Assembly: GCA_021731285.1 (NCBI GenBank)
Contig: JAKFXR010000037.1
Coordinates: 20,755-84,754, forward strand
DNA: 64,000 nt
Direction of reading: 5' to 3'
Source: Polaromonas sp.
Lineage (GTDB): Bacteria; Pseudomonadota; Gammaproteobacteria; Burkholderiales; Burkholderiaceae_C
Below are positions 16,423 through 31,465 of the stretch, piece by piece (positions within the stretch are counted from its first letter, which is position 1; every line of letters begins with the position of its first letter). The position numbers and the translations under genes are program-made. Under the pieces are notes generated by a model. The model saw only the letters and a list, made by a program, of their open reading frames with translations. It searched no databases and was not told where the DNA came from.

Positions 16423-17055
16423 ATGACCCCGTCCCAGTCGCTGCGCCTCGTGATCATTGCTCCAGATCTGCTGGAAGATGTAGCAACGGACGAGCACGCC
16501 CGCAGTCAGGCGGAGCGTTCGCGCCAGTTGCGTATTGGCTTGCTGGAAGCCGGTTACAACATCGTCGCGGTTCTGCCGGCTGACACTTTCCTCGATGAGC
16601 GGCTGGCGCAGTTGCAGCCCGACATGATCATCGTGGACGCAGAAAGCGAGGCGCGTGATTCCCTCGAGCATGTGGTGATGGCCACACGCGACGCGCGGCG
16701 GCCGATTGTGCTGTTCACCAACGACAACGACACCACCCATGTGAAGGATGCGGTAGCCGCGGGTGTGTCCGCTTACATCGTGGCAGGCCTTTCGGCCGAC
16801 CGCATACGCCCCATCCTGGACGTGGCCATTGCGCGCTTCGAGCACGAACAAGGGCTCAGGCGTGAGCTGGCCGATGTCAGGACCGAGTTGCAGGACCGCA
16901 AGATCATCGACCGGGCCAAGGGCCTGCTGATGCAACGCCAGAAACTCGACGAAGCGGCTGCTTACGAAAAGCTGCGCAAGGCAGCCATGGACAAAGGCCT
17001 GCGCCTTGGCGAGGTGGCGCAGCGCATTCTGGACGCAGCCGATCTTTTGGGGTGA
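16423..17055 (+). CDS. Response regulator with ANTAR RNA-binding domain (NasT/AmiR-like)
   Basis: REC-like domain plus C-terminal DRKIIDRAKGLLMQRQKLDEAAAYEKLRKAAMDKGLRLGEVAQRILDAADLL. Confidence 0.9.
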   Translation: MTPSQSLRLVIIAPDLLEDVATDEHARSQAERSRQLRIGLLEAGYNIVAVLPADTFLDERLAQLQPDMIIVDAESEARDSLEHVVMATRDARRPIVLFTNDNDTTHVKDAVAAGVSAYIVAGLSADRIRPILDVAIARFEHEQGLRRELADVRTELQDRKIIDRAKGLLMQRQKLDEAAAYEKLRKAAMDKGLRLGEVAQRILDAADLLG

Positions 17056-18634: not shown

Positions 18635-18651
18635 CGCACAAATCCGGTGCA
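18635..18651. promoter_or_regulatory. Candidate NtrC binding site upstream of nrtA
   Basis: CGCACAAATCCGGTGCA fits GCAC-N6-GGTGC and lies about 130 bp before the sigma-54 promoter. Confidence 0.5.
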
Positions 18652-18777
18652 AAAATCATCCCAAGCCAGATCCGGTTTTCATTTGCTATATTTTTAATAG
18701 CATACTTTGCTTGCCCTTCAAGGGAAAACTGCCTGATTTACTTCCAACCCTGGTTGCTTCCCCTTCAAGACATACGC

Positions 18778-18793
18778 TGGCACGGCTATTGCT
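18778..18793 (+). promoter_or_regulatory. Sigma-54 (-24/-12) promoter for nrtABC
   Basis: TGGCAC-GGCTA-TTGCT; GG and GC starts exactly 12 nt apart. Confidence 0.75.
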
Positions 18794-18810
18794 CTAACTC
18801 CCTCGCAAGA

Positions 18811-18906
18811 ACTTGTACTTCAACGGCGAAGTGGCAAGCTCCCTGAACAAAGGCGTTCGAACCCTCGCATTCACATTGTGTTTGCACGGGTCGAGCGCCT
18901 TTTTTG
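18811..18906 (+). promoter_or_regulatory. ANTAR-type antitermination leader of nrtA: P1 and P2 hexaloop hairpins plus overlapping intrinsic terminator
   Basis: P1 ACTTC[AACGGC]GAAGT (18817-18832); P2 GAAC[AAAGGC]GTTC (18845-18858); both loops A1/G4. Terminator AGGCGTTCGAACCC...GGGTCGAGCGCCTTTTTT (18851-18905) shares P2 sequence. Confidence 0.8.
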
Positions 18907-18942
18907 TTTTCTGCTTTTGTTTTTTTAATTCTGGAGACCACC

Positions 18943-20187
18943 ATGACTGATCTGCTGCAATCTTCATTGAAACGCCGCACTGTGTTGCAAGCCGCCGCGG
19001 TAGGTGCCGCCGGTATCAGCCCCGCGTTGCGCGCTGTTGTGTATGCCCAGGGCTCCGACGCCCCCGAGAAAAAGGAGGTCAAGATTGGCTTCATTCCCCT
19101 GACCGACTGCGCATCCGTGGTCATGGCCTCGGTGCTGGGCATCGACAAGAAGTACGGCGTCACCATCATCCCGACCAAGGAAGCCAGCTGGGCAGGCGTG
19201 CGCGACAAACTGGTCAGTGGTGAGCTGGACATGGCGCATTCGCTGTACGGCCTGATCTATGGCGTGCACCTCGGCACATCCGGCCCGAAGAAGGACATGG
19301 CGGTATTGATGACGCTGAACCAGAACGGTCAAGCCATCACGCTGAGCAAGAAACTGGCTGACAAGGGTGCGGTGGACGCCGCGTCTCTGGCCAAAGTGAT
19401 GGCTGCTGAAAAACGCGAATACACCTACGCCCAGACTTTCCCGACCGGCACCCACGCCATGTGGCTGTACTACTGGCTGGCCAGTGTCGGTGTCAATCCA
19501 ATGAAGGACGTCAAAGTCATCACCGTGCCACCGCCGCAGATGGTGGCCAATATGCGGGTCGGCAACATGGACGGTTATTGCGTCGGCGAACCCTGGGGCC
19601 ACCGCGCCATCGCCGACGGTATCGGCATCACGGCCGTCACCACCCAGGACATCTGGAAAGACCACCCCGAAAAAGTGCTGGGCACCACCGCCGATTTCGT
19701 CAAAAAAAACCCGAATACCGCACGCGCAGTCACTGCCGCCATCATTGAAGCCGGCAAATGGATTGACGCCAGCCTGGGCAACAAGAACAAGATGGCCGAG
19801 ACTGTGGCCGACAAGTCCTACGTCAACACCAGCGTGGACGTGATCAACCAGCGCATCCTTGGCCGCTACCAGAACGGCATGGGGAAAACCTGGGACGACC
19901 CGAACCACATGAAGTTTTACAACGACGGTGCGGTGAGCTTCCCTTACCTGTCCGATGGCATGTGGTTCCTGACCCAGCACAAGCGCTGGGGTCTGCTCAA
20001 GGAGCATCCGGACTACCTGGCTGTGGCCAAACAGATCAACCAGATCGACATCTACAAGCAGGCTGCGACCGCCGCCAAAGCCAGCGTTCCCAAAGAACTC
20101 ATGCGCAGCAGCAAGATGATCGACGGGGTGGTCTGGGACGGCAAGGATCCCAAAAAGTACGCCGACAGCTTCAAAGTCCGCGCTTGA
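18943..20187 (+). CDS. nrtA: Nitrate ABC transporter substrate-binding protein (NrtA/CmpA family)
   Basis: Tat-like LKRRTVLQAAAVGAAG; KKEVKIGFIPLTDCASVVMASVLGIDKKYG... VPPPQMVANMRVGNMDGYCVGEPWG. Confidence 0.93.
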   Translation: MTDLLQSSLKRRTVLQAAAVGAAGISPALRAVVYAQGSDAPEKKEVKIGFIPLTDCASVVMASVLGIDKKYGVTIIPTKEASWAGVRDKLVSGELDMAHSLYGLIYGVHLGTSGPKKDMAVLMTLNQNGQAITLSKKLADKGAVDAASLAKVMAAEKREYTYAQTFPTGTHAMWLYYWLASVGVNPMKDVKVITVPPPQMVANMRVGNMDGYCVGEPWGHRAIADGIGITAVTTQDIWKDHPEKVLGTTADFVKKNPNTARAVTAAIIEAGKWIDASLGNKNKMAETVADKSYVNTSVDVINQRILGRYQNGMGKTWDDPNHMKFYNDGAVSFPYLSDGMWFLTQHKRWGLLKEHPDYLAVAKQINQIDIYKQAATAAKASVPKELMRSSKMIDGVVWDGKDPKKYADSFKVRA

Positions 20188-20217: not shown

Positions 20218-21189
20218 ATGGTCAGTGCCGTTTTTCATTCCCCGCTGGAGACCGCTCCAGCCCACGTTCCTATCCCGGCGCCTGCACGGAGTCAGGAGAA
20301 AACTGCTACCTATTCAGTAGCAGAAACTCCGCGTCCCGCAATGGCTGCGACGCCAATCGATGCCCGAGCCACTGCGCCGGATCCGGGGCCTTCCCGTGCA
20401 TCGCGTTTGATGTCCGGTTTCTGGCTGGCAGTGTTGCCACCTGTGCTGGGCATTGGCCTGCTGACCCTGATCTGGGAACTGGTGTCGGTAGGCACCGGCA
20501 GCAGCATCCCCTCGCCGCTGGAGACCTTCAAGCAGGCCGTGGTGCTGTTCAGCGATCCCTTCTACAGCAAGGGCCCCAACGACCAGGGCGTGGGCTGGAA
20601 CGTACTCAGTTCACTCCAGCGTGTGGCCATGGGTTTCGGCATGGCTGCCGTGGTCGGCATACCGGTGGGTTTCATGATAGGCCGCTTCAACTTTCTGAGC
20701 CGCATGTTCAACCCCCTGATCAGCCTGCTGCGGCCGGTGTCTCCCCTGGCCTGGTTGCCGATTGGCTTGCTGGTCTTCAAGGGCGCCAACCCGGCTGCGA
20801 TCTGGACCATCTTCATCTGCTCGATCTGGCCCATGATCATCAACACCGCTGTGGGTGTGCAGCGCGTGCCACAGGACTACATGAACGTGGCGCGGGTGCT
20901 CAACCTGAGCGAGTGGAAGATCGTCACCAAAATCCTGTTCCCCGCCGTGCTGCCTTACATGCTGACCGGCGTGCGCCTGGCAGTCGGCACCGCCTGGCTG
21001 GTGATTGTTGCCGCAGAAATGCTCACTGGCGGCGTCGGCATCGGCTTCTGGGTCTGGGACGAGTGGAACAACCTCAACGTCAAGAACATCATCATCGCGA
21101 TTTTTGTGATCGGCATCGTCGGCCTGGTGCTGGAGTTTGCACTGATCAAGCTGGCCACTGCATTCACGTTTGAAGACGTCAAAAACTAA
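20218..21189 (+). CDS. nrtB: Nitrate ABC transporter permease
   Basis: BPD permease; operon between nrtA-like and nrtC-like genes. Confidence 0.92.
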   Translation: MVSAVFHSPLETAPAHVPIPAPARSQEKTATYSVAETPRPAMAATPIDARATAPDPGPSRASRLMSGFWLAVLPPVLGIGLLTLIWELVSVGTGSSIPSPLETFKQAVVLFSDPFYSKGPNDQGVGWNVLSSLQRVAMGFGMAAVVGIPVGFMIGRFNFLSRMFNPLISLLRPVSPLAWLPIGLLVFKGANPAAIWTIFICSIWPMIINTAVGVQRVPQDYMNVARVLNLSEWKIVTKILFPAVLPYMLTGVRLAVGTAWLVIVAAEMLTGGVGIGFWVWDEWNNLNVKNIIIAIFVIGIVGLVLEFALIKLATAFTFEDVKN

Positions 21190-21198
21190 GGATTCATC

Positions 21199-22011
21199 AT
21201 GAGTGCATCTTTCACCACCAAGTACATCGAAATCCAGGGCGTCGAGCAAACCTTCAAGACCAAAAAAGGCCCGTTCTGCGCGCTGAAAAACATCAACCTG
21301 ACCGTCGCAAAGGGTGAGTTTGTCGCACTGATTGGCCACTCGGGCTGCGGCAAGTCCACGCTGCTCAACCTGCTGGCCGGCCTGACCATGCCGACCCAGG
21401 GCAGCCTGATCTGCGCCAACCGTGAAATCTCGGGGCCGGGTCCGGAGCGCGCGGTGGTTTTCCAGAATCACTCGCTGCTGCCCTGGCTCACCTGTCATGA
21501 AAACGTCTACCTCGCCGTCGAAAGGGTGTTCAGCGCTACCGAGACCCGCGCCCAGCTGAAAGAACGCACAGAGGCAGCGCTGGCCATGGTCGGCTTGACG
21601 CCAGCTGCGCAAAAGCGTCCCGGTGAAATTTCTGGCGGCATGAAGCAGCGCGTCGGCATTGCCCGCGCGCTGTGCATGGAGCCCAAGGTTCTGCTGCTCG
21701 ACGAGCCGTTTGGCGCACTGGACGCATTGACCCGGGCCAAGCTGCAGGACGAGTTGCTCCAGATTGTTGCCACCACGCAGAGCACGGTGGTGATGGTGAC
21801 GCACGACGTGGACGAGGCTGTGCTGCTGTCCGACCGCATCGTGATGATGACCAACGGTCCCGCCGCCACGATTGGGGAAGTCCTCGCCATTGACCTGCCG
21901 CGGCCGCGCAACCGGGTGGATCTTGCCGAGAGTACGCAGTACCTGCACTACCGCAAGGCAGTCATCGACTTTTTGTACACGCGCCAGGGCCACGTCGAAA
22001 AAGCTGCCTGA
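21199..22011 (+). CDS. Nitrate ABC transporter ATP-binding protein (NrtC/NrtD-like, no fused binding domain)
   Basis: Walker A GHSGCGKST, ISGGMKQRVGIARAL, LLLDEPFGALD. Confidence 0.92.
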   Translation: MSASFTTKYIEIQGVEQTFKTKKGPFCALKNINLTVAKGEFVALIGHSGCGKSTLLNLLAGLTMPTQGSLICANREISGPGPERAVVFQNHSLLPWLTCHENVYLAVERVFSATETRAQLKERTEAALAMVGLTPAAQKRPGEISGGMKQRVGIARALCMEPKVLLLDEPFGALDALTRAKLQDELLQIVATTQSTVVMVTHDVDEAVLLSDRIVMMTNGPAATIGEVLAIDLPRPRNRVDLAESTQYLHYRKAVIDFLYTRQGHVEKAA

Positions 22012-22067
22012 GGAACACATAGCAGCGACAAGGTCGCACCTGTATGCAAGCAAGGGAGGAGTTTTCA

Positions 22068-24209
22068 ATGTCCGCAGTCTTACCCGCCAACGGAGCCCTC
22101 CGGGCCGCACCAACCCAGGATACGCCCGCCCGACGTGAACGGCCCGCGCGCTCCCGTGGTTTTGCTTCACTGGGAAAATACCGCGAGCTGATCATTGCCG
22201 TCGGCTTTTTCCTGCTGTTCGACCTCGGGGTGCTGGTTCTCAATTTCTATACCTCGTTCCAGATCGCCGAAGACGCCGTGGGTATCAACCTGGCAGGACG
22301 CCAGCGCATGCTGTCGCAGCGCACAGCCAAAGCCCTGCTGTCGGTAGAAGCAGCCAGGATCAAAGGTGTGCCTGCCACCGATGAACTTGAGGAGCTGAAA
22401 AATGCTGTGAAGCTGTTTGACGCTTCGCTCAAAGGCTTCCAGAGCGGTGCCACGGTGCCAGGCGGGAATGGCAAGCCGGTCTTTCTGCCTGCCGCCCAGG
22501 GCGACAAAGCCGCAGACATCCTGAAAAAAGCACAGGATCTCTGGACGCCCTACCAGGTCAACCTCGCCCCAGTGCTGAGCGGAGCGGCAAGCGAAACCGA
22601 ACTGAAAGAGGCGGCCGACTACGCAAAAGCCAACAACCTGAAGCTGCTGGCCTTGATGAACGAACTGACCACGACGCTGGAGGCAGTGGCCTCAGACCGG
22701 GCCAGCGTCCTGCGCATGGTGCAGACCGGCGGCATTGTCCTGGCTTTGCTGAATTTCGCATTTATTCTCTTCAAGTTTCTGCGCCGGCTGAATACTTCCG
22801 ACGCTGCCATTGAGGCGGCTACCGAAGAAAACCGCGAGATCCTGACCAGCGTGCGCGAGGGACTGTTTCTGCTGACGCCCGAGCACCGGCTGGGCTCGCA
22901 GCTGTCGCGCTCGTCGCATGGGCTTTTCGGCAAGACCCTGGTGCCCGGCCAGAATTTCTTTGAGTTGCTTTCCCCCCTGGTGTCGGAAAAGGCCCTGACA
23001 GACGCGCGCAACTATGTGGGCCTGCTGTTTTCCCCTCACGTAAAAGAGCAATTGATCCAGGGCATCAACCCCCTCGCCGAGGTCGAGCTCACCGTGAAAA
23101 ACCGGCTGGGCCAGGACACCCCACGCTTCCTGTCGTTTCACTTCAACCGGGTGCAGGACGGAACGGCTGTGCGCCACCTGCTGGTGACCGTGCAGGACAT
23201 TTCGCAGAAGGTCGAACTCGAGGCCAAGCTGACCACCGAACGCCATCGCTCGCAAAAAGAGCTGTCCATGATGCTCAAGGCCTTCGAGACCGACCCGGCC
23301 ATGATGCGTGCCTTTGTCGAGCGGGCCGAGGCGTCCTTGCTGGAGGTGAACGACCTGCTTCGCAGCACTTCGTCGGCCGCATCTGAAACCCAGGTCCTCA
23401 AAGCGGTTGACGGGGCCTATCGCCGCATCCACGCCATCAAGGGAGATGCAGCCTCACTGGGTCTGGAAATTCTCGCCTCGCTGGCCCATCAGTTTGAAAA
23501 CGAGTTGCAGAAACTCAAGGACAGCGGCGTGGCCACCGGCGACGCCCTGCTGGCCCTGCCCTTGCCGCTGGAAGACCTGCTGAACAAGGTCGCAGCCTTC
23601 AAGGCGATGAGTCAGAAAAGAGGTAGCGGCTCGCAAGCCGAGCCGGCACCGACGCCCCAGCAGCTCAACGCAAGCTTGCAGCAACTGGCGGCCGATGTGG
23701 CCCATGATGTCGGCAAGCGCGTCAACGCCGACGTGCGCATGTCCAGTGTGCTGGACCTGCAGGCCGAGAAAATCGACCTGGTCCGTGAGATAGCCATCCA
23801 GCTGGTTCGCAACGCTGTGGTGCACGGAGTGGAAGTTCCGCCCGTCAGGCTGGCCGCCGGCAAGGCGGTTCAGGGCGAGGTCACCGTCAACCTCAGCCGG
23901 GACGCAAATGGTCAATACCTGCTCAGTGTGCGGGACGATGGCGCGGGCCTCAATGCTGCCAACGTGCGACTGCGCCTGATGGCCCTGGGTTGGTACACGG
24001 CAGAGCAGTTGCTCAGCTTCAGCGACAAACAGATCGTCGCGCACATTTTCAAGCCGGGCTTTTCCACCGCCCATGCGGCTTCCGCACACGCCGGCCGCGG
24101 TGTGGGTCTGGACCTGGTGCAGGCCAATGTGCAACGTCTGGGTGCGCGCTTGCTGCTATCCAGCATCCCTGGACAACACACCGAGTTCAAGGTGTCGTTC
24201 GCTGCTTGA
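22068..24209 (+). CDS. Membrane sensor kinase: PilJ-N-type P-box sensor, PAS-like region, Hpt and CheA-like HATPase
   Basis: Two TM segments, INLAGRQRMLSQRTAKALL, Hpt motif RRIHAIKGDAASLG, ATPase IQLVRNAVVHGVE ... DDGAGL ... GRGVGLDLV. Confidence 0.85.
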   Translation: MSAVLPANGALRAAPTQDTPARRERPARSRGFASLGKYRELIIAVGFFLLFDLGVLVLNFYTSFQIAEDAVGINLAGRQRMLSQRTAKALLSVEAARIKGVPATDELEELKNAVKLFDASLKGFQSGATVPGGNGKPVFLPAAQGDKAADILKKAQDLWTPYQVNLAPVLSGAASETELKEAADYAKANNLKLLALMNELTTTLEAVASDRASVLRMVQTGGIVLALLNFAFILFKFLRRLNTSDAAIEAATEENREILTSVREGLFLLTPEHRLGSQLSRSSHGLFGKTLVPGQNFFELLSPLVSEKALTDARNYVGLLFSPHVKEQLIQGINPLAEVELTVKNRLGQDTPRFLSFHFNRVQDGTAVRHLLVTVQDISQKVELEAKLTTERHRSQKELSMMLKAFETDPAMMRAFVERAEASLLEVNDLLRSTSSAASETQVLKAVDGAYRRIHAIKGDAASLGLEILASLAHQFENELQKLKDSGVATGDALLALPLPLEDLLNKVAAFKAMSQKRGSGSQAEPAPTPQQLNASLQQLAADVAHDVGKRVNADVRMSSVLDLQAEKIDLVREIAIQLVRNAVVHGVEVPPVRLAAGKAVQGEVTVNLSRDANGQYLLSVRDDGAGLNAANVRLRLMALGWYTAEQLLSFSDKQIVAHIFKPGFSTAHAASAHAGRGVGLDLVQANVQRLGARLLLSSIPGQHTEFKVSFAA

Positions 24210-24266
24210 TATGGCCCCCACCTTCGTCAGACCATCAAAAGAAACACTGCCACCGGGGAGAACACC

Positions 24267-24638
24267 ATGCGGCTGCTGATTGTTGACGACTCGAACATGA
24301 TCCGTACGCGCATCTCCCGCGTGGTGCAGAACGGCGGTCTCAAGGGTGTGGTGCTGGCGGGCCTGGCCAAAAACGGGCGCGAGGCGCTGCGTCTGGCGCG
24401 GGCCACCCGGCCGGAGGTCGTCACCATGGACCTGACCATGCCCGAGATGGACGGGATTGAATGCATTCAGGAAATGCTCAAATTCGACCCCAGCATCAAC
24501 ATCCTGGTGGTCAGCGCGCTCAGCGACAAATCGACCGCCATCGAGGCTCTCAAACTGGGAGCGCGCGGCTTCGTCGCCAAGCCGTTTTCGGATGAAGAAT
24601 TGCAGATCGCGCTGCTTGATGTTTCAGAAATGCGTTAG
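24267..24638 (+). CDS. CheY-like single-domain response regulator
   Basis: LLIVDDSNMIRTRI, MDLTMPEMDG, VAKPF. Confidence 0.93.
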   Translation: MRLLIVDDSNMIRTRISRVVQNGGLKGVVLAGLAKNGREALRLARATRPEVVTMDLTMPEMDGIECIQEMLKFDPSINILVVSALSDKSTAIEALKLGARGFVAKPFSDEELQIALLDVSEMR

Positions 24639-24727
24639 GGCCACTGCCATCGCCGCGCGCCGCAATCGCCCTGTTTTAATCATGTCCGCACTTACATATA
24701 GCCTGAACAGGCCCCAAGGAAAACACA

Positions 24728-25186
24728 GTGGCTACCCTGCAGGAAAATGATCTCAAGCTGTTTGTCGACTCGATCAGGAACTACCTGACCGTTACGACCC
24801 GCCAGGAGCCCAAGATCACCTCCGCCTTTTTGGGCATGGGCGATGTGACGGGATATGAATTCAACGGCATCGTCACCTTCTCGGGCAGCCACAACGGCCA
24901 CGTGGTCGTCTCCATGCCGGACAAGCTGGTGCGCGAAGTGCTGCTGCTGCAGCATGAAACCGACCTGAGTGACGGCAACCTGCTCGACGCCGTGGGAGAA
25001 ATTGCCAACACGCTGGCTGGCAACGCCCGCAAGGTGCTGGGCTCGGAGCTGCAGATTTCGGTACCCATCAAACTGCAGGGTGCCAACGGCATCAAGGCGC
25101 GTGTCCGCAAGCGCCCCTATGTCATCACCCTGCGCTGGAATCACTACGACGCCATGGTCTGCGTGGACATGGAGCGGCGCCACTAA
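24728..25186 (+). CDS. CheX-family chemotaxis phosphatase-like protein (GTG start)
   Basis: DLSDGNLLDAVGEIANTLAGNARKVLGSELQISVP. Confidence 0.85.
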   Translation: MATLQENDLKLFVDSIRNYLTVTTRQEPKITSAFLGMGDVTGYEFNGIVTFSGSHNGHVVVSMPDKLVREVLLLQHETDLSDGNLLDAVGEIANTLAGNARKVLGSELQISVPIKLQGANGIKARVRKRPYVITLRWNHYDAMVCVDMERRH

Positions 25187-25281
25187 GGCGGCGGTTGCGC
25201 ACGAAGTGCGTGCGCCGCACCATAAAAGCCCATCCCATTCCCTGCTTTGAAGCAGGGAGTGGTGATCGCGCATGCCCCAAG

Positions 25282-25298
25282 TTGGCACGCAATTTGCA
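25282..25298 (+). promoter_or_regulatory. Sigma-54 promoter for narK
   Basis: TTGGCAC-GCAAT-TTGCA, 12-nt GG to GC spacing, 43 nt before narK. Confidence 0.78.
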
Positions 25299-29958: not shown

Positions 29959-31236
29959 CTAACCTACAAGCATCTGCATGCTGCGCTCATAGTGCAATGA
30001 AAGCCGCTCAAATGCATCAAGCAGGTCTTCGCTGGCCACAGCCAGACGCTCCAGACCTTCTTTCCTGTTGGTGGAGCCAATCCCTGCCAGCAGGCGCTCC
30101 CAGCAGGACCCGGCCGTCGCGAGCTCCTGCCGGATGTCCTTGCTGGTCAATGGAATCTCGCCCAGCTGACGCAGCGCTTCCTCGAAGGCCTGCCTGGCAG
30201 CAGCCATGCCGGCTTCGCTGCCCGGGATGGAAGACGGGCCGGCAACCACCTCGAGGAGGGCATATTTGGCAAACCGCTGGCTGAGCATGCGCTGACGCCC
30301 GGCCAGGTTGAGGACATGCAGGGGCGGCGTGGCACCGGCGCTTTCGAGGCTGCTGGTCAGGCGCTCTGCCGCCAGCAGCAGTTGCTCGGCCAGCGCATTG
30401 ATACGGTCAAGATCGCCAGCCACAGCCTGGCCCTGCAAAGCCTGCTTGAGTTCCCCCCAACTGCTGGCAATCTGGCGCAACAAGTCGCCAAAAGTGGGCT
30501 GGGAAAGGCTTTTGCCCAGCGCTGCGATATTGGCATCAATGCGCAAGCTCGACTCTTCAAAGCGTTCCTGCACCCGGGCTGCCGTGACTCCTGCCATTCG
30601 CAGCAAGGCCAGCTTGACCAGCCGCTGCGACAGCATCCGCAACTGCCCCGAGCGGTTGACATCTTCGGCAAACCGGGCCGAGTGGATGATGTGCCGCGAC
30701 ACCTGCCCCAACCGCTGGTTGCTCTGCATGGAAGCAGTACGCAGCATCTGGAAGGCGTCGTCGTCCGTCACCCCGCGGGCACGCATCAAAATGCCCTTGG
30801 CCCTGTCGACCATTTTTCGCTCTTCAAGGCGGCTGGTGACATCCAGCACCTGCGCCCGCAGCGCCTGCTCCCGGCCAAAGCGGGCCTGCGCCAGTTGAAC
30901 CAGGGACCGCAGGCGTTGCTGGCCATAAGCGTTGACAACATAAGCATGCACCCCCACCCCGGTGGCGCGCGTGATCCTGCCGGCGTCACCGTCCGTGGTG
31001 AAGACGATCACCGGACATGGCGCTGTTTCGTCAATGATCTGCAGGGCCTTGAAAAGCTCTTCGCCAGGCAATGGATCCCAGCAAATCAATACATCCGGTG
31101 CATGGGCCAGCACATCACGCACCAACCTGGAGCGGTCAGGGGTGCATGCCAGAACCTGCAGCCCCACGGCTTGCAGGTCTGCAGCCAGCGGAGGCGCGCC
31201 GGTTGCGTCACTCAAACTTACCAATGCGGAGGTCAT
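29959..31236 (-). CDS. NasR-like ANTAR antiterminator: pseudo-receiver + ANTAR + two PilJ-type P-box segments
   Basis: EERKMVDRAKGILMRARGVTDDDAFQMLRTASMQSNQRLGQVSRHI; NRSGQLRMLSQRLVKLALL and NLAGRQRMLSQRFAKYALL. Confidence 0.88.
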   Translation of the reverse strand: MTSALVSLSDATGAPPLAADLQAVGLQVLACTPDRSRLVRDVLAHAPDVLICWDPLPGEELFKALQIIDETAPCPVIVFTTDGDAGRITRATGVGVHAYVVNAYGQQRLRSLVQLAQARFGREQALRAQVLDVTSRLEERKMVDRAKGILMRARGVTDDDAFQMLRTASMQSNQRLGQVSRHIIHSARFAEDVNRSGQLRMLSQRLVKLALLRMAGVTAARVQERFEESSLRIDANIAALGKSLSQPTFGDLLRQIASSWGELKQALQGQAVAGDLDRINALAEQLLLAAERLTSSLESAGATPPLHVLNLAGRQRMLSQRFAKYALLEVVAGPSSIPGSEAGMAAARQAFEEALRQLGEIPLTSKDIRQELATAGSCWERLLAGIGSTNRKEGLERLAVASEDLLDAFERLSLHYERSMQMLVG

Positions 31237-31332: not shown

Positions 31333-31349
31333 TTGGCACAGCTTTTGCA
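31333..31349 (+). promoter_or_regulatory. Sigma-54 promoter for nirB operon
   Basis: TTGGCAC-AGCTT-TTGCA with canonical spacing. Confidence 0.78.
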
Positions 31350-31384
31350 TTGTCCTTTGCGGGCGTAACGACGCGTCCAGCCTT

Positions 31385-31465
31385 GCAAAAGCACTGCAGG
31401 TTTTGCGCACAACGACGTGCGTAGTGATGTGCCTCCTTCCGGCGTCAAGCCGGGCCCCTGTTTTT
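31385..31465 (+). promoter_or_regulatory. Candidate ANTAR-type leader of nirB: tandem hexaloop hairpins, then GC hairpin and T5 tract
   Basis: P1 GCAAAAGC[ACTGCA]GGTTTTGC (31385-31406, one G-G mismatch), P2 CGCAC[AACGAC]GTGCG (31406-31421); both loops A1/G4; CCGGC-GTCAA-GCCGG at 31439-31453, T5 at 31461-31465. Confidence 0.65.

Follow-up and report, generated by a model that had tools for sequence, protein, structure and literature searches.

Positions 18636-18906 of the window, the whole 64,000-nucleotide stretch of Polaromonas sp. DNA analysed here, most likely form a leader that places the nitrate transporter operon nrtABC under activation by NtrC and sigma-54 RNA polymerase and under antitermination by the ANTAR protein NasT. 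An earlier note on this DNA had proposed that nitrogen status and ANTAR antitermination both govern the operon. Four lines of evidence support this: conserved sigma-54 boxes and NtrC-type dyads, covariation of the hairpins P1 and P2 and of the terminator, a gene for NasT or NasR immediately upstream in most relatives, and the blind recovery of the same leader in other families.

Architecture of the nrtA leader

The nrtA leader proper (18778-18906) comprises a sigma-54 box, two hairpins with AnnGnn hexaloops (P1 and P2) and a strong terminator (Table 1). The promoter TGGCAC-N5-TTGC, P1, P2, the hexaloops with A at position 1 and G at position 4 and the terminator, all named in the earlier note, are present in the sequence, which confirms its observation on this leader. 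The P1 stem pairs ACTTC (18817-18821) with GAAGT (18828-18832) around the loop AACGGC (18822-18827), with CTTG (18812-18815) and CAAG (18835-18838) forming a lower stem. P2 pairs GAAC (18845-18848) with GTTC (18855-18858) around AAAGGC (18849-18854), and A1 and G4 are found in both loops. The terminator re-uses the loop and 3' arm of P2, the strand in common being 18851-18858, and folding gave it a free energy of -31.1 kcal/mol (z = -5.9) compared to -14.2 kcal/mol for P1 and P2. The leader has what is expected of an ANTAR-target dual hexaloop antiterminator: six-nucleotide loops with A1/G4, a P2 and a terminator that exclude each other, and an ANTAR gene close by.

Only two pairs of AnnGnn hexaloop hairpins spaced 18-50 nt apart and followed by a T-run were found on the plus strand of the window, those of the nrtA and nirB leaders, and both sit behind a sigma-54-like box. 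Sixty simulated windows of equal dinucleotide content held a mean of 0.05 such pairs, with none behind a box.

Table 1 Features of the nrtA and nirB regions in the window
Feature	Position	Strand	Basis or remark
nasT-like ANTAR regulator, likely leader partner	16423-17055	+	ANTAR E 4.3e-20; neighbour in most relatives
NtrC-type enhancer dyad GCAC-N7-GTGC	18636-18650		142 bp upstream of sigma-54 box; conserved in relatives
Sigma-54 (-24/-12) promoter TGGCACGGCTATTGC	18778-18792	+	sequence; same box in relatives' leaders
Predicted transcript start	near 18804	+	inferred from usual sigma-54 spacing
P1 hairpin	18812-18838	+	sequence, folding, stem covariation; loop A1/A2/G4 invariant in 53 aligned leaders
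P2 antiterminator hairpin GAAC[AAAGGC]GTTC	18845-18858	+	sequence; P2 stem paired in 53/53 leaders
Intrinsic terminator	18851-18905	+	arms 18851-18864 / 18888-18899, U-run 18900-18905; folding and compensatory changes
nrtA, nitrate ABC transporter binding protein, Tat-type signal	18943-20187	+	NMT1_2 E 2.2e-101
nrtB, permease	20218-21189	+	TIGR01183 above cut-off
nrtC/D, ATP-binding protein	21199-22011	+	TIGR01184 above cut-off
ANTAR-PilJ protein (REC-like, ANTAR, two PilJ domains)	29959-31236	-	ANTAR domain; N-box
Second dual-hexaloop element, before nirB	31334-31424		sigma-54 box, hairpins at +33 and +77

Beyond the genes listed, Pfam and NCBIfam models name a PilJ-Hpt-HATPase kinase, a receiver, a CheX protein, a NarK-type transporter, nirB, a Rieske protein and an assimilatory nitrate reductase-like protein.

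Probable sigma-54 and NtrC control

The NtrC-type dyad upstream of the promoter had been missed in the earlier note. GCAC-N7-GTGC is the core of NtrC sites. An exact dyad was present in 65 of the 76 relatives' 260-bp stretches upstream of the box, versus 1% of the control stretches taken from these loci. The genome encodes NtrC (above the family cut-off) and rpoN, and a search for a sigma-70 promoter near the nrtA leader found none. There are three strict boxes (TGGCAC-N5-TTGC) in the 64 kb, before nrtA, narK and nirB, compared to 0.47 expected; narK is preceded by both an NtrC-type dyad and a sigma-54 box (25199-25213 and 25283-25297) but by no hexaloop leader. As in nalA, an NtrC-type enhancer and a sigma-54 box precede the nrtA leader here, at the level of sequence. 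Very probably, nrtABC is switched on by nitrogen limitation through sigma-54 and NtrC and is freed from termination by the adjoining NasT.

Conservation and covariation among relatives

A search of named genomes with NrtA yielded 80 loci, nearly all from Comamonadaceae, and box and leader were kept in 78 of them. Under one reading rule, 76 of the 80, plus the window and contig C146 of the same assembly, were scored as a sigma-54 box with leader; two further loci have the box with a weaker or divergent leader. The box takes the form TGGCAC..TTGC in 70 of 78 leaders, TGGCAC..CTGC in five and TGGCAT..TTGC in three. A1, A2 and G4 of the P1 loop and G4 of the P2 loop were invariant across 53 aligned leaders; over the 78 leaders the P2 loop has G4 without exception (78/78) and A1 in 73. 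The earlier note had held that a lack of loop conservation in related genomes would speak against its reading, and the loops proved conserved. Position 1 of the P2 loop is G in five relatives (GAAGGC in L008, L034, L036 and L057; GACGGC in L059), which belong to Caenimonas, Ramlibacter, Rubrivivax and one other and offer natural tests of the A1 rule. A search for plasmid copies of the nrtA leader found none. Paracidovorax wautersii carries a second nrtA-type leader directly before narK (L070:19384-19505).

The hairpins are preserved as structures as well. On the 53 aligned leaders, 96.8% of cells in P1, P2 and a further hairpin, P0 (described below), were paired, with 43 two-sided changes compared to 10.3 in shuffles, and the P1 stem covaries. 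For the terminator on the same leaders, 97.5% of cells were paired, with two-sided changes at five pairs. The P2 5' arm, the P2 3' arm and the terminator 3' arm change jointly: they mostly read GGAC/GTCC/GGAC, and the window and its close relatives instead have GAAC/GTTC with GAAC or GAGC in the terminator 3' arm. Mutually exclusive structures predict such joint change, and this three-way covariation together with the shared strand upholds the exclusion of P2 and terminator described in the earlier note. A reading without ANTAR binding, in which these structures simply attenuate transcription or end a transcript from upstream, is hardly credible. There clearly is an intrinsic terminator, but the loops, which are dispensable for it, rank among the most conserved letters, and ANTAR genes adjoin the leader.

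In most relatives, P0 (GACC-loop-GGTC) stands at the predicted 5' end of the leader, and P0-bearing leaders present three loops at ~28-30 nt spacing. Most nrtA leaders of Comamonadaceae have it, with carriers among L006-L083 (e.g. L014:9845-9969). The P0 stem covaries, and its loop has A1/G4 in about half of the leaders, otherwise often being GNRA- or UUCG-like. The window leader and a few relatives do not have P0, which has been lost in the window leader. A1/G4 loops in P0 were associated with NasT as against NasR (Fisher p 0.0007); we do not claim this association because, on the NrtA tree, regulator exchange provides only a single independent contrast and the P0 loop class requires at least 22 changes. 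Given how often the loop class changes on the tree, P0 may be a 5' stabiliser that at times provides an extra ANTAR site.

Relationship to known leaders

We built a covariance model, R1, from the family's nrtA leaders; the window is included in its alignment, and the window's own R1 score is no test. R1 recovered leaders outside its alignment at E 1e-13 or better (L004, L005, L007, L012, L019, L050 and L058), all from close relatives of the window. Among 369 genomes from the class Gammaproteobacteria, matches were obtained in 74 at E up to 0.01. Of the 29 R1 loci that were read, most precede nrtA, nirB or narK and have NasT or NasR on their opposite side; such leaders are thus present in other gammaproteobacterial families. 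In the window's own genome, only one further nrtA-type leader was found, on contig C146, and a match on C10 (E 0.007), which does not have such a layout, was rejected as another. The short contig C146 (locus L001) has the order tsaD, NasR, leader, nrtA. It is probably a contaminant contig of another, related species since it carries a second tsaD and a second nrtA, the latter 82% identical to the first.

An Rfam search gave matches to two families only, P11 and narK RNA, both below the Rfam threshold: the window leader scored 26.9 bits (E 0.0016) against P11 (RF00625; gathering score 70) and 19.6 bits against narK RNA (RF03032; gathering score 43.2). L116, an R1-found leader before narK, reaches 55.1 bits and so exceeds the narK RNA threshold. 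Both Rfam models span the promoter-P1-P2 order seen in the window leader.

Pseudomonas has a nirBD leader, NalA, whose transcription is driven by a sigma-54/NtrC promoter and for which NasT acts as the antiterminator (review PMC12830290). The nalA/P11 leader shares with the window leader this promoter type, the hexaloop hairpins, a terminator sharing P2 and a putative NasT antiterminator, and the P11 consensus is the P2 of most relatives (GGACAAAGGCGTCC); here, in contrast, nrtABC instead of nirBD would be controlled, no NasS was found, and the window P2 reads GAAC..GTTC. The Klebsiella nasF leader with NasR is likewise a dual hexaloop antiterminator with A1/G4, and a NasR-type protein occupies the equivalent place in Variovorax, whereas the window's neighbour is NasT, an ANTAR protein without a NIT domain. 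The Enterococcus eut leaders with EutV have A1/G4 loops and a P2 overlapping the terminator (PMC3369931, PMC8934654) but differ in signal, genes and regulator activation, EutV being phosphorylated by EutW. It is well supported that the nrtA leader belongs to the nalA/P11/narK kind, sigma-54-driven and ANTAR-antiterminated, already known from Pseudomonas.

Probable regulator partner and possible nitrate sensing

Genome-wide, three ANTAR domains were found: in the NasT-like protein, in the ANTAR-PilJ-PilJ protein and in a NasR-like protein on contig C146. NasT or NasR is encoded directly upstream in most loci having enough flank, with NasR replacing NasT beside the leader in Variovorax, Xenophilus, one Hylemonella and contig C146. 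The earlier note had offered both regulators of the window as candidates; NasT is now favoured, and the ANTAR-PilJ protein stands opposite nirB and another RNA element. NasT is the likely partner of the nrtA leader because NasT or NasR is its constant neighbour and the ANTAR-PilJ gene, found in only some family genomes, is mostly divergent to nirB or narK.

We regard it as improbable that the ANTAR-PilJ protein, rather than NasT, acts on the nrtA leader and senses nitrate through its own N-box. The protein does have an ANTAR domain, its N-box matches the nitrate N-box of McpN exactly, and the window NasT is without NasS. However, a search at E 1e-70 found the protein in just 32 of 301 family genomes, its position in relatives is opposite nirB or narK and a hexaloop element of another kind, with a fixed geometry of its own, and the neighbour that stays constant beside the nrtA leader is NasT or NasR.

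In known systems NasS holds NasT back, and nitrate releases it (PMC3795266, PMC5424462). A search for NasS in the genome (assembly 88% complete) found none, returning only NrtA, the second NrtA on C146 and distant exported proteins, and in none of the 80 loci is an NMT1_2 protein other than NrtA encoded within 10 kb of nrtA. In 60 family relatives, a NasS query returned no NasS and no more than one strong homologue per genome, of NrtA-like length. The NasS-NasT two-component arrangement, with NasS as a signal-less NrtA homologue, was therefore not found. With NasS, the usual nitrate sensor of NasT, found neither in this genome nor in the family, the nitrate step at the nrtA leader is a putative one.

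With NasT always active, the leader would be a nitrogen-regulated attenuator at which nitrate has no role in nrtA expression. The missing NasS fits such a reading, as does a Paracoccus nasS mutant that expresses nas genes without nitrate (PMC5424462). We nevertheless consider it rather unlikely: Variovorax retains the leader with NasR in place of NasT, Klebsiella NasR uses a NIT domain of its own to sense nitrate (PMC5424462), and a permanently open switch would hardly keep its terminator under selection.

For a NasT that does respond to nitrate, other sensors may be considered. NrtA has an RR (twin-arginine) signal in 79 of 79 loci, and in a quick tree with some long branches it shares one clade with signal-less NasS proteins adjoining NasT in other families. 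Tat-exported proteins fold in the cytoplasm first. On these grounds we speculate that the NrtA precursor might stand in for NasS. After nrtC, 22044-25186 encodes a CheA-like kinase that has an exact nitrate N-box, along with a single-domain receiver and a CheX phosphatase. Together they make up a chemotaxis-like module for nitrate signalling within the nrt operon, common to several relatives. Its N-box kinase (22044-24209) is another nitrate-sensing candidate and is absent from many relatives.

A second hexaloop element before nirB

The second PilJ domain of the ANTAR-PilJ protein matches exactly the McpN nitrate N-box (LNLAGRQRMLSQ; pattern taken from PMC6381276). The protein is thus a candidate nitrate-sensing antiterminator with an architecture unlike those of NasR, NasT and EutV. 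The hairpins of the nirB element lie at 31361-31378 (+33) and 31403-31424 (+77), and the same geometry was found before nirB or narK in many relatives with a divergent ANTAR-PilJ gene. Copies of the nirB type were seen in L009, L044, L050, L185-L192, L195, L196, L203 and L205. In 17 aligned copies both hairpins covary. An Rfam search of the element gave no relevant match, and no family covers it. When a terminator was sought, hairpins and T-runs were found, none of which overlaps the second hexaloop hairpin. The ANTAR-PilJ protein probably serves this element and not the nrtA leader.

Discussion

From the arrangement of the elements, we infer that NtrC, NasT and nitrate would act as follows. 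Under nitrogen shortage, NtrC near 18636-18650 would activate sigma-54 RNA polymerase at 18778-18792, and the transcript would begin near 18804. By default, the terminator (18851-18905) would form, being far more stable than P2, and transcription would halt before nrtA. Active NasT (16423-17055) would bind the A1/G4 hexaloops of P1 and P2, and the closed P2, occupying the strand needed by the terminator, would let polymerase read into nrtABC. Four points count against this explanation: the missing NasS, the sub-threshold Rfam scores, the G at P2 loop position 1 in five relatives and the 88% completeness of the assembly.

More tentatively, the nitrate genes of the family may be run on two separate ANTAR systems, an idea to which we give somewhat less than even weight. 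One would be NasT on the nrtA leader without NasS, the NrtA precursor perhaps substituting; the other would be a REC-ANTAR-PilJ-PilJ protein with a nitrate N-box, acting on an undescribed dual-hexaloop element that has no visible terminator and that lies, ahead of nirB or narK, at a constant distance from a sigma-54 promoter.

Newer to specialists would be the nirB element with its N-box ANTAR protein, and also the missing NasS; NasT without NasS on a conserved leader is a testable gap. With good comparative support, the NtrC-plus-NasT leader logic of Pseudomonas now extends to nrtABC across Comamonadaceae. In addition, P11 and narK RNA, two families that Rfam lists without a common clan, are tied to one antiterminator type. 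With NasR on the same leader in Variovorax, regulator exchange on a fixed RNA target is open to experiment.
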